18,107 nt of DNA from Desulfuromonadales bacterium (GTDB lineage Bacteria > Desulfobacterota > Desulfuromonadia > Desulfuromonadales > BM103). The notes beneath the pieces were generated by a model. That model was not told the DNA's origin. It did no database searches and saw only the letters and a list, made by a program, of their open reading frames with translations. The stretch spans positions 1 through 18,107 of the forward strand of contig DAOWJU010000043.1 of assembly GCA_030640215.1 (NCBI GenBank), given 5' to 3'. Position numbers and translations under genes: made by a program. Below, one piece after another: positions 11,186 through 13,841 of the stretch (positions are counted from its first letter, which is position 1; each line of letters starts with the position of its first letter).

Positions 11186-12060
11186 TTAAGCGACATCAAG
11201 ATCAAATTTTTTCCAGCGATGCACAACCGGGGCAGAGTTGATCTCCTTGATCCCCAGGAGGATACGTTCCTTGAGTTCCTTTTTAGAGGAAACTCGAATA
11301 TGACGTAAAAAGGTTCGGGCCATTTTTAAAAATGACGTTTCTACTAAATTCAACCACAAACCATGCTTTGGCGTGTGTACGTAAGCAAAGCGGCCCGGAC
11401 GAGAGGCAAGATATTTCATGGTCTCTTTTGAGATATGTGCTGAATGATTGTCCAGGATGACACGAATCGTACTCTCTTTTGGATAATAGGCATCAAGTTC
11501 TTTGAGTAACATAATAAATTCTCTACTGCGATGACGATCATGGACTTGCGCTATAATTTTACCGCTATGCAGATCAAGGGCTGCGAGTATTGATACGGTG
11601 CCAAGCCGCTTGTACTCATAGTCTCGTCCGACCGTTTTATACTTTCCCGGCTTCGGCGGTAAGTCGGGAGCAATATTGGCAATGGCTTGAACGCCAGGTT
11701 TCTCGTCAACGGACACAGTGATCATTGCCGGAGGTAAATCGTTGGATACAGCTTGGTCGTTTTGGAGATTGACCTCTTGGTAGACCATGAGAACTTCCTG
11801 CATTTTTTGCTCAAAGTCTGGGTCTCTGCGCTCCAGATAATATTTGATTTTATGAGGACGTATTTCATTGGCCGAGAGGATTCTCCAAACCGTTGCTTTT
11901 ACGGCTTTTGACAGAGATACATGCCCTGCAGTCGGTGCATGTATGCAGGTATACTTGGCAAGCTCGCTATAGGTCCAAAGCTCAGCACGACAATCAGGGT
12001 GACTCTTATGCGAAGCGTCTGTTAGGATACATTTGCATGTACTGATGATATGTCCGTGAT
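11186..12060 (-). mobile_element. IS630-type insertion sequence remnant
   Basis: The stretch with clear IS630 protein similarity covers this range. The left end must lie somewhere in 11061-11185 and the right break near 12050-12110. I could not find terminal inverted repeats or a TA duplication, so the limits are minimum estimates. One end has been lost, as shown by the missing N-terminal part of the transposase. Confidence 0.6.
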
Positions 12061-12106
12061 AAAGTTCTTCGTTTTGATCGCTTTTTGGAGTCACATGATA
12101 TGGCAT
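11186..12106 (-). CDS. IS630-family transposase, N-terminally truncated
   Basis: This is the catalytic part of a DDE transposase of the IS630 family (IS630/Tc1/mariner group, TA target sites). The 306-residue reading frame keeps the acidic triad: Asp134 in SVDEKPG, Asp219 in VILDNHSAH and Glu256 in WLNLVE. The family regions ELWTYSELAKY and HRWKKFD are also present. Intact members carry about 100 more N-terminal residues with helix-turn-helix DNA-binding domains; those are absent. Family resemblance begins around residue 18 (HGHII), and the first codons overlap the start of the CRP/FNR gene on the other strand. A Leu replaces the usual Ser before WLNLVE, which may be drift. I therefore read it as a non-autonomous remnant, though the remaining frame is open throughout. 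Confidence 0.85.
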   Translation of the reverse strand: MPYHVTPKSDQNEELYHGHIISTCKCILTDASHKSHPDCRAELWTYSELAKYTCIHAPTAGHVSLSKAVKATVWRILSANEIRPHKIKYYLERRDPDFEQKMQEVLMVYQEVNLQNDQAVSNDLPPAMITVSVDEKPGVQAIANIAPDLPPKPGKYKTVGRDYEYKRLGTVSILAALDLHSGKIIAQVHDRHRSREFIMLLKELDAYYPKESTIRVILDNHSAHISKETMKYLASRPGRFAYVHTPKHGLWLNLVETSFLKMARTFLRHIRVSSKKELKERILLGIKEINSAPVVHRWKKFDLDVA

Positions 12107-12795
12107 CCACCTGTGGCAATATGAATTTACTGAAACAGGCTCAGCTGTTTGCAGACCTTTCTCTGAAAGAGTTAGAGTCTATTTCCTGCCGAGTTACTCT
12201 CAGAGAATTCAAGAAGGGTGAAGTTATCCTTTATGAGGAGGATGCCAACAAGTATATGTATTCGGTCCTTGAGGGTGAGGTAAAGGTTTATTACTCCTCT
12301 GAGGATGGTAAGGAGTCGATTGTTGCTTTTCATGGTGCGGGAGAATCTTTCGGTGAAGTTTCCCTGATTGATCAGAAAACGATCCCGGCGATGGTCGCAG
12401 CTATGGAAAAATCACTTGTTCTTGTCATCGGCAGAGATGATTTTTTTGCCATTATCCAAAGTCAACCAAAAGTCATGCATAAACTGCTTCTGCTGTTGTC
12501 GGGGCGTTTGCGACACTCCTGGAAGCAGGTACGTATGCTCCATTTCAAGGATGCCTCTAATCGTGTGATGGCTTCAATCAAGGAAATGGCTGCAGAACGC
12601 GGTGAGGTAGGGCCTGAGGGAGTGTTGTTGACGCTACGTCTGACACATCAGAATATAGCTGATCTGACCGGCCTGACTCGTGAAACGGTAACGCGTATAA
12701 TTGACAAATGGAAAAAATCAGGCCTGGTGTCTTTAGATGAAAACCGTCACATGTTAATTCGGCACAGTTTCTTTGAAGAAAATTTCAGTTTGTGA
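12100..12795 (+). CDS. CRP/FNR-family transcriptional regulator
   Basis: This is a two-domain DNA-binding regulator. From ATG 12100 it has 231 residues: a cyclic-nucleotide-binding-like beta-roll (about 14-120, with EGEVKVYYSSEDGKE and GESFGEVSLI), a long dimer helix, and a C-terminal winged helix with LTHQNIADLTGLTRETVTRIIDKW (about 181-204). In cAMP-binding members the sequence after GE(L/V) contains Arg-Ser for the phosphate; here the same place reads TIPAMV, so classical cAMP binding is unlikely. Only two cysteines (5 and 30) lie at the N-terminus, so the four-Cys FNR iron-sulfur pattern is missing. GGAG at 12087-12090 favours ATG 12100 over TTG 12085 or ATG 12121. Its upstream region is IS630 debris, so its present promoter may not be the original. 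The signal and targets are unknown. Confidence 0.9.
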   Translation: MASTCGNMNLLKQAQLFADLSLKELESISCRVTLREFKKGEVILYEEDANKYMYSVLEGEVKVYYSSEDGKESIVAFHGAGESFGEVSLIDQKTIPAMVAAMEKSLVLVIGRDDFFAIIQSQPKVMHKLLLLLSGRLRHSWKQVRMLHFKDASNRVMASIKEMAAERGEVGPEGVLLTLRLTHQNIADLTGLTRETVTRIIDKWKKSGLVSLDENRHMLIRHSFFEENFSL

Positions 12796-12840: not shown

Positions 12841-12854
12841 ACGATTTAGATCAA
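12841..12854. promoter_or_regulatory. Possible FNR/CRP-type half-palindrome
   Basis: ACGATTTAGATCAA has the core GAT-N4-ATC of FNR-class sites (TTGAT-N4-ATCAA), with one complete half (ATCAA) and one weak half. It lies between a CRP/FNR gene and the riboswitch leader, so that regulator could act on the leader's promoter. No clear promoter is visible around it, and the match may be chance. Confidence 0.3.
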
Positions 12855-12868
12855 GTTGTTTGGTCTAT

Positions 12869-12962
12869 ACTCTGCCCAGAGCAAACCGTGGGAAACCGCG
12901 GGACGCAGAGCCACGGAGCTAACAGAAGGTTCTCCTTCAGATGCCAGCCGAGCCGCCAGAGT
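12869..12962 (+). promoter_or_regulatory. GEMM-I riboswitch, probably cyclic AMP-GMP (3',3'-cGAMP) selective
   Basis: This RNA leader matches the GEMM-I (c-di-GMP-I) aptamer: GAGCAAACC at 12879-12887, a P2 stem (CCGTGG/CCGCGG) capped by a GAAA tetraloop at 12892-12895, GGGACGCAGAGCC at 12900-12912, CTAAC at 12919-12923, a P3 hairpin GAAGG/CCTTC, and GCCAGCCG at the end. A six-base P1 closes it (12869-12874 with 12957-12962). Counting with the Vibrio Vc2 numbering, position 20 is A (12880), and A47 is kept (12907). G at position 20 is usual for c-di-GMP sensors, and A20 marks the Geobacter-type GEMM-Ib switches that prefer cGAMP. Ligand preference is inferred from this base. The switch precedes a secreted-protein gene. 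Confidence 0.88.
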
Positions 12963-12993
12963 TATCAATGCTCTGGCGGTTTTTTGTTTTTTT
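12953..12993 (+). terminator. Riboswitch expression platform: intrinsic terminator
   Basis: CCGCCAGAG (12953-12961) pairs perfectly with CTCTGGCGG (12971-12979), followed by TTTTTT, G and seven more T. The left arm contains the 3' strand of aptamer stem P1 (12957-12962), so the aptamer and the terminator cannot form fully at once. Ligand binding should stabilise P1 and let transcription continue, which makes this a predicted ON switch. Confidence 0.85.
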
Positions 12994-13007
12994 AAGGGAG
13001 GTTCACC

Positions 13008-13841
13008 ATGAGATCAATTCCAGCAGGCCATCATGATAAAAGGGTTAAACTCTTTTGCGATGGGGTATGGCAATTGTTTGTACTGTCGCTGCTTGCGCTC
13101 TCTTTATTGTGCTTTGCTACCGAGATCCAGGCGGCGCAAATAACATTTGCCCCGAATGGTTTGACGGTTCATGTCGCGCCTGGAGAAACCGTTGCGGTGC
13201 CAATCGCAGTGTCATTGGAAAACACCTCTTTGCCAAATTCATATGCCAGCTTCGGCCTTGCCCATGTTGGCGGCTCTCTTGATCGTAACTGGATAAACAG
13301 CCAGATTTATATATCTTTGAATTCCTGGTACAAAACACGACAGGCTGTTCTTCAGGTCAAGGTTCCCGCTGATGCGCAAGGCGGTGTCTACAGGGGTGTA
13401 TTGAAAACTGTCTGGCTCAGGTCGAACGAGAGTATTGCCCCTGCTGAGTTCGAGATTAATGTAGACGTAGATAGCTTTGTGAGTTGCAGTCAGGTCCCCT
13501 TGTTCTCAAATATTGTTGCATCACAGGAATCCATCAATATGCGCAACAATAAGCAGGTAAACATAGGGTTGTCGGGGTCCGTTTCCGTGCCTGATGGTTG
13601 TGAAATTGACAATGCTTATTATCAGCTCGTAGACGAGTATGGTGAGCTGGACAAAATTGAAGATTTGCAGTTTGGCGATGGTGGAAGCTTTACTGTTGCG
13701 GTACCGATGGTTGCTTCACGGAAAGGCGATGACAAAGACGGCAGGCTTTATATCGTTAAATTTGTAGCAGAAAATGAGGCAGGAGTCGGCGAAAGCGTCG
13801 AGACCAACATCGTTGTTAAGCATGACAACAGTAAAAAATAA
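13008..13841 (+). CDS. Secreted protein of unknown family under riboswitch control
   Basis: I do not recognise this 277-residue protein. It has a long, basic N-region (HHDKRVK), a hydrophobic core at about 22-38 and a likely signal peptidase site after IQA near residue 43, so it should be exported. The rest is rich in alternating beta-type sequence with no membrane helix and looks like two beta-sandwich domains. The first is about 44-150, starting ITFAPNGLTVHVAPGETVAVPI; the second is about 160-270, ending ETNIVVKHD. Its two mature cysteines, in VSCSQ and DGCEI, could form a disulfide. It has no CXXCH heme motif, no lipobox and no sorting signal. GGGAGG lies seven bases before the ATG. Control by a probable cGAMP riboswitch suggests a role in surface attachment or extracellular electron transfer; that is inference. 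Confidence 0.8.
   Translation: MRSIPAGHHDKRVKLFCDGVWQLFVLSLLALSLLCFATEIQAAQITFAPNGLTVHVAPGETVAVPIAVSLENTSLPNSYASFGLAHVGGSLDRNWINSQIYISLNSWYKTRQAVLQVKVPADAQGGVYRGVLKTVWLRSNESIAPAEFEINVDVDSFVSCSQVPLFSNIVASQESINMRNNKQVNIGLSGSVSVPDGCEIDNAYYQLVDEYGELDKIEDLQFGDGGSFTVAVPMVASRKGDDKDGRLYIVKFVAENEAGVGESVETNIVVKHDNSKK

Follow-up and report, generated by a model that had tools for sequence, protein, structure and literature searches.

The locus considered here raises a question about ligand and target: does a GEMM-I riboswitch with A at the position where the c-di-GMP-binding type has G respond to 3',3'-cGAMP, and which gene would it control? The switch lies on the forward strand of a contig of a Desulfuromonadales bacterium; below, 'the window' means the whole stretch of DNA that was analysed (18,107 nt). 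In our assessment the element is most probably a GEMM-Ib (A20) riboswitch that acts as a cGAMP-responsive transcriptional ON switch of the gene at 13008-13841, which has a secreted-looking product. The features on which the argument depends are the following.

12100..12795, + strand: Crp/Fnr-family transcription regulator gene (alternative start TTG 12085); Pfam cNMP_binding 1.1e-23 and HTH_Crp_2 1.4e-12 for the frame from 12085
12847..12867, unstranded: 21-nt inverted repeat TAGATCAA-GTTGT-TTGGTCTA, ending 2 nt before the aptamer; operator or RNA hairpin
12870..12961, + strand: GEMM-I aptamer including P1 (RF01051, 54.2 bits; P1 5/5 pairs; 18/22 model pairs)
12870..12875, + strand: CUCUGC, 5' strand of P1 and arm of a competing helix (minimum-energy folds)
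12880, + strand: A at the equivalent of Vc2 position 20 (cmscan alignment; 5/5 orthologous loci)
12905..12910, + strand: GCAGAG, partner in the competing helix, containing the equivalents of C46, A47 and G48 (minimum-energy folds)
12953..12979, + strand: intrinsic terminator stem-loop of 10 pairs (fold and overlap with P1)
12980..12993, + strand: U tract (6 U, G, 7 U), from the sequence
12996..13001, + strand: GGGAGG, likely ribosome-binding site, from the sequence; also found before the ATG in four other loci
13008..13841, + strand: open reading frame; 277-aa product whose N-terminus resembles a signal peptide (by eye); orthologs 53-81% identical

The GEMM-I aptamer and its base at position 20

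When the whole window was searched with cmscan, the single structured RNA at or above its gathering score was a match to RF01051 (c-di-GMP-I / GEMM-I) at 12870-12960 of the plus strand, with 54.2 bits against a gathering score of 35. Given the E-value of 2.3e-8, a chance match was rejected. The first-pass annotation had placed a GEMM-I switch at 12869..12962, which proved right to a base or two, and had read A at position 20; the Rfam covariance alignment agrees, with A12880, not G, at model position 11, immediately 5' of the pair G12881-C12906. We equate model position 11 of RF01051 with Vc2 position 20 in the usual numbering, and A at that position is the mark of the GEMM-Ib (cGAMP) subclass. 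In the portion of PMC9262584 available to us, G11 of Cd1 corresponds to G20 of Vc2, in agreement with this assignment.

P1 is complete, CUCUG (12870-12874) facing CAGAG (12957-12961) in 5/5 pairs, and 18 of the 22 pairs of the model are standard; the remaining four are A-A, A-C, C-A and A-C. With a score above the curated threshold and with pocket and helices conserved, the element belongs to RF01051. Its fold energy is unremarkable (z -0.44; 62 of 200 shuffles folded equally well or better) and does not single out the aptamer, thus the evidence for it is the covariance score. By score it ranks 7th among the eight GEMM-I matches of its own genome.

Alignments showed A20 in 5/5 orthologous loci from four genomes (own locus counted), and for this reason a sequencing error at position 20 was rejected as well. 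At the equivalent of position 48 we read G in the window switch (L007), as well as in L008, L084 and L086.

One could take the low rank, the four non-standard pairs and a fold energy like that of shuffles, together with an ortholog in genome G003 that has no comparable terminator (see below), as signs of a degraded relic, i.e. a non-binding aptamer with a constitutive terminator, or a gene controlled in its expression solely by the Crp/Fnr protein; yet among loci of the same genus the aptamer keeps 93-95% identity, against 82% for the coding region and 69-75% for the 51 nt upstream, and the pocket, tetraloop and receptor letters are retained across the aligned orthologous loci. We regard a relic as highly improbable and continue with a working GEMM-Ib switch as the preferred reading.

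The terminator and the direction of switching

All of P1's 3' strand (12957-12961) falls inside the 5' arm of the terminator (12953-12962), as does the conserved CC from the 3' end of the model. Terminator and P1 are thus mutually exclusive in the window, as in switches of the pilM type. The terminator stem with the first six U folds with -19.1 kcal/mol (z -6.22). Scans for terminator-like and promoter-like sites returned 2 sites against 2.0 expected and 2 against 2.1 expected, respectively; as these counts are at chance level they are meaningless alone, and we put the weight on the hairpin fold and its overlap with P1.

For the unbound RNA, CUCUGC (12870-12875) is predicted to pair with GCAGAG (12905-12910) across the ligand pocket. 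The ligand-free minimum fold, with both the terminator and this competing helix, has -49.5 kcal/mol, versus -28.6 kcal/mol with the aptamer pairs forced. The competing helix appeared in the minimum fold of the window locus only and was absent from the aptamer minimum folds of the four other loci. Terminator hairpins were predicted in the window (-21.2 kcal/mol), in G015 (-15.9) and in both copies in G016 (-14.3 and -18.7). For the G003 ortholog we found no comparable terminator (-5.6 versus -21.2 kcal/mol in the window), so the mutually exclusive arrangement is not predicted there and the platform is not retained in every ortholog.

A platform in which the 3' strand of P1 lies entirely within the terminator's 5' arm has the look of an ON switch, and from this we infer the direction of switching. 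In the proposed mechanism, the 3' strand of P1 would in the absence of ligand be captured by the strong terminator, a capture favoured in the window RNA by GCAGAG, which would hold the 5' strand of P1 in a helix across the pocket, and transcription would stop near 12980-12993. 3',3'-cGAMP, which would be produced by GacA-like Hypr GGDEF enzymes of the same genome, would on binding close P1 and block the terminator, so that the gene would be transcribed in the cell. The sections of PMC9262584 that we could consult describe the same logic for the pilM cGAMP ON switch, in which the terminator is set against P1 and the Watson-Crick partner of the ligand is sequestered.

Candidate cGAMP synthases and the other GEMM-I switches

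The genome that harbours the switch is fragmented (2.71 Mb in 347 contigs, 83% complete) and gave 13 GGDEF matches, with Ser at the Hypr position in three, the canonical Asp in eight and a degenerate residue there in two. The three Ser-bearing domains are those of L016 and L017, with GGDEF, and of L021, with GGDDF; L017 and L021 run off contig ends. The combination of Ser with GGDDF is that of GSU1937 in the part of PMC8835794 available.

L016 (457 aa) is GacA-like, with a receiver-like N-terminus; its best PDB match is 6d9m (3.3e-52), a lysozyme-fused diguanylate cyclase domain that we take to be the Gmet_1914 (GacA) construct of PMC6456294. In the numbering of the 6d9m alignment, L016 has the equivalents of Asn 339, Ser 348 and Asp 374, i.e. 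the signature of Hypr GGDEF enzymes of the GacA kind (Ser at 348 with GGDE[F/Y], Asn339, Asp374). At the equivalent of 304 it has His, whereas Geobacter GacA has Tyr at this cross-dimer position. Across the GacA-like proteins of the family (L117-L137) the residue is His in 19 of 21 and Tyr in the two others (G007, G008). Within the accessible text of PMC6456294, Tyr, Ser, Ala or Gln at 304 gives mainly cGAMP and Arg gives more c-di-GMP; His is not named among these residues.

Matches to L016 at E <= 1e-80 were present in 21 of the 22 family genomes, own counted, the lone exception being G013, which is 71% complete. The Hypr Ser was read in all 21, in G002 with GGDEY. In one genome (G010:C185) the gacA-like gene matches as two pieces (L137 and L138), one of them with a stop codon.

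With a GEMM-Ib switch one looks for a candidate cGAMP synthase among the genes of its host, and the first-pass annotation had counted the lack of a Hypr GGDEF enzyme as grounds for giving up its cGAMP reading. The search identified the GacA-like L016 and the two further Ser-bearing GGDEF domains as such candidates. The likely cGAMP sensor that it had proposed is therefore supported, at the level of sequence, by the alignment of A20, by A20 in the four other orthologous loci and by a GacA-like Hypr-Ser protein in this genome and in 20 of the 21 other family genomes searched.

A20 by itself does not guarantee selectivity. As far as the available portion of PMC9262584 goes, position 20 is a selectivity factor and not a hard filter, and a protonated adenine allows cGAMP switches to bind c-di-GMP; sensitivity to both ligands is reported, in the part of PMC6456294 at hand, for a Geobacter switch that precedes omcST. 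Moreover, c-di-GMP is probably present in the host, because eight of the 13 GGDEF matches show the canonical Asp. All this would suit a switch that is dual or still mainly c-di-GMP-sensing, with A20 merely loosening its selectivity. We consider such a switch improbable: A20 has been retained in all five orthologous loci while the same genome has five G20 switches, and selectivities for cGAMP of ∼1600-fold for Gm0970 and ∼1200-fold for the pgcA switch are given in the accessible parts of PMC8835794 and PMC6456294. That cGAMP is the natural ligand of the window switch is what we infer.

Eight GEMM-I matches were found in the genome, three with A20 (L001, the window switch L007, and L008) and five with G20, which makes it probable that switches for cGAMP and for c-di-GMP exist side by side there. 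One of the three, L001:1500-1579 (G000:C192), matches best with the Rfam c-di-GMP-I-UAU model (74.5 bits), yet has A20; downstream of it follows a long reading frame in which glycine-rich repeats and a signal-like beginning were read by eye.

GEMM-I matches occurred in 22/22 family genomes, at least 2 to at least 38 in each; up to 123 candidates were scored per genome, and these counts may be undercounts. The richest genomes were G015 (at least 38), G017 (at least 36) and G016 (at least 27), with at least 2 to at least 20 in the other 19. For G015, the best-assembled member, the 38 matches listed (two of them below the gathering score) comprised 16 with A20, 21 with G20 and one unclear; a fixed rule made 28 of the calls (15 A, 13 G) and the 10 that it left open were assigned by eye. 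Five of the G015 switches (L061, L074, L076, L077 and L078) combine A20 with a swapped C21-G46 pair. A further 26 family loci, an unfair sample as they were chosen by high score, had A20 in 5 and G20 in 20, with one left open by the rule.

The cassette and its relation to known systems

The sequence comparisons indicate that the switch sits in a small conserved cassette made up of a regulator gene, the 21-nt repeat, the A20 aptamer and the gene of a secreted-looking protein. Relatives of the 277-aa protein were found in four of 22 family genomes, own counted (E <= 1e-3), and in six of 136 genomes of the order (E <= 1e-6). The family relatives occupy five loci in four genomes, all with an A20 GEMM-I switch upstream and a Crp/Fnr-type gene before the switch. 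Orthologs of the regulator, 71-87% identical, precede the corresponding switch in G003, in G015 and, with two copies, in G016, and at E <= 1e-60, a strict cut-off of our choosing that covers close relatives and leaves out more distant Crp/Fnr proteins, the regulator occurs in the same four of 22 genomes and in these five places only. The cassette is present twice in G016. In the window a transposase gene with a DDE_3 domain (11186-12106), which we read as IS630-like, directly adjoins the Crp/Fnr gene, and its ORF overlaps the TTG-started frame.

The 277-aa protein had no Pfam or NCBIfam match above cut-off (best sub-threshold E-values 0.023 and 0.024), and a profile of it and its relatives searched against PDB gave no chain at E <= 0.5. 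Two distant homologs from two other families of the order (L114 and L115) had no GEMM-I at the gathering score in the stretches examined, thus the protein itself is not tied to the switch.

The first-pass annotation had also hinted at life on mineral surfaces and electron transfer. For this gene the hint was not borne out: the 277-aa protein has no CxxCH (haem) motif, so nothing that we found ties the gene to electron transfer. Checked on first downstream genes, the link is not supported for this gene. In G015, where downstream frames were chosen by a crude rule, the first frame contained CxxCH after one of 16 A20 switches and after three of 21 G20 switches, one switch being unassigned. Elsewhere in the own genome a protein with 13 CxxCH motifs was read (L140, G000:C337), on the same contig as the G20 switch L006.

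The repeat at 12847-12867 may be a putative operator of the regulator or an RNA hairpin. If the Crp/Fnr protein encoded next to it used it as its operator, the gene would be gated twice, at initiation and, through cGAMP, at termination; this would supplement the ON-switch explanation. It fits that the four of 22 genomes with the regulator (E <= 1e-60) are also those with the secreted-looking protein (E <= 1e-3), but adjacency alone could account for the joint inheritance of the two. Identity of the repeat in the four other loci is 100, 100, 95 and 76%, better than that of the preceding 51 nt (61-75%). Base changes in the stem, on the other hand, leave it able to pair as RNA (by eye), the loop-closing pair of G003 being the one exception, so that an RNA hairpin fits as well; folded as RNA the repeat has z -4.95. 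At the cassette the repeat pattern is mismatch-free in the own genome, G015, G003 and one G016 copy and has one mismatch in the other G016 copy; however, the exact matches in the own genome and G003 hold by construction, since the pattern was built from the own locus and its G003 relative. With up to one mismatch allowed, in the five genomes searched, the pattern had one place in the own genome and one in G015, at the cassette locus, while further one-mismatch places were found elsewhere in G003, G012 and G016. A further point against is that the promoter scan, at chance level as given above, offers no transcription start relative to which the repeat could be placed. We consider the operator possible, while leaning against it.

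A broader proposal is that of a self-contained cassette, found in two genera of one family, in which initiation would be controlled by a dedicated Crp/Fnr regulator binding an operator of its own, and termination by a cGAMP riboswitch, forming a two-input AND gate on a surface protein unrelated to cytochromes. We offer it tentatively, as a rather doubtful reading. The cGAMP-responsive ON switch, our preferred explanation, stands with or without it.

Confirmation of the ligands would mean that cGAMP control extends well beyond cytochromes. The basis for this wider reach is the presence of GacA-like Hypr-Ser proteins in 21/22 and of GEMM-I in 22/22 family genomes, and the A20 switches of G015 (16 of the 38 listed) with CxxCH in 1/16 first downstream frames. 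On the same condition, the cassette would offer a compact system for dissecting the control of one gene by a protein and an RNA.

In the literature, as far as the portions available reach, most of what is said on cGAMP riboswitches concerns Geobacter and deals with cytochromes, pili and metal respiration, although these switches occur in several gram-negative bacteria (PMC9262584). Our literature search found no paper joining them with Desulfuromonas, nor with Crp, and the part of PMC3543383 available makes no mention of GEMM.

Compared with c-di-GMP GEMM-I switches (Vc2, RF01051), the window switch has the same fold, conserved blocks, and GAAA tetraloop and CUAA/AUG receptor letters; it differs by A, not G, at position 20 and by G at the equivalent of 48. 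On the enzyme side, L016 shares with GacA (GSU1658 / Gmet_1914) and GSU1937 a receiver-like N-terminus and a GGDEF domain with the Ser348 equivalent, and L021 shares Ser with GGDDF; L016, a candidate enzyme judging by its residues, differs from GacA by His in place of Tyr at the 304 equivalent. The closest known systems are the Geobacter GEMM-Ib switches (pgcA, omcAHG, pilM and Gm0970), with which the window switch has in common the GEMM-I fold, A20, mutual exclusion of P1 and terminator and a GacA-like protein in the genome. Unlike these, it precedes the gene of a secreted-looking protein without CxxCH and has a Crp/Fnr gene and an inverted repeat upstream, and its cGAMP selectivity and switching direction are presumed. 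The switch is thus of a known kind, GEMM-Ib, and the window locus is a good new example of that kind.
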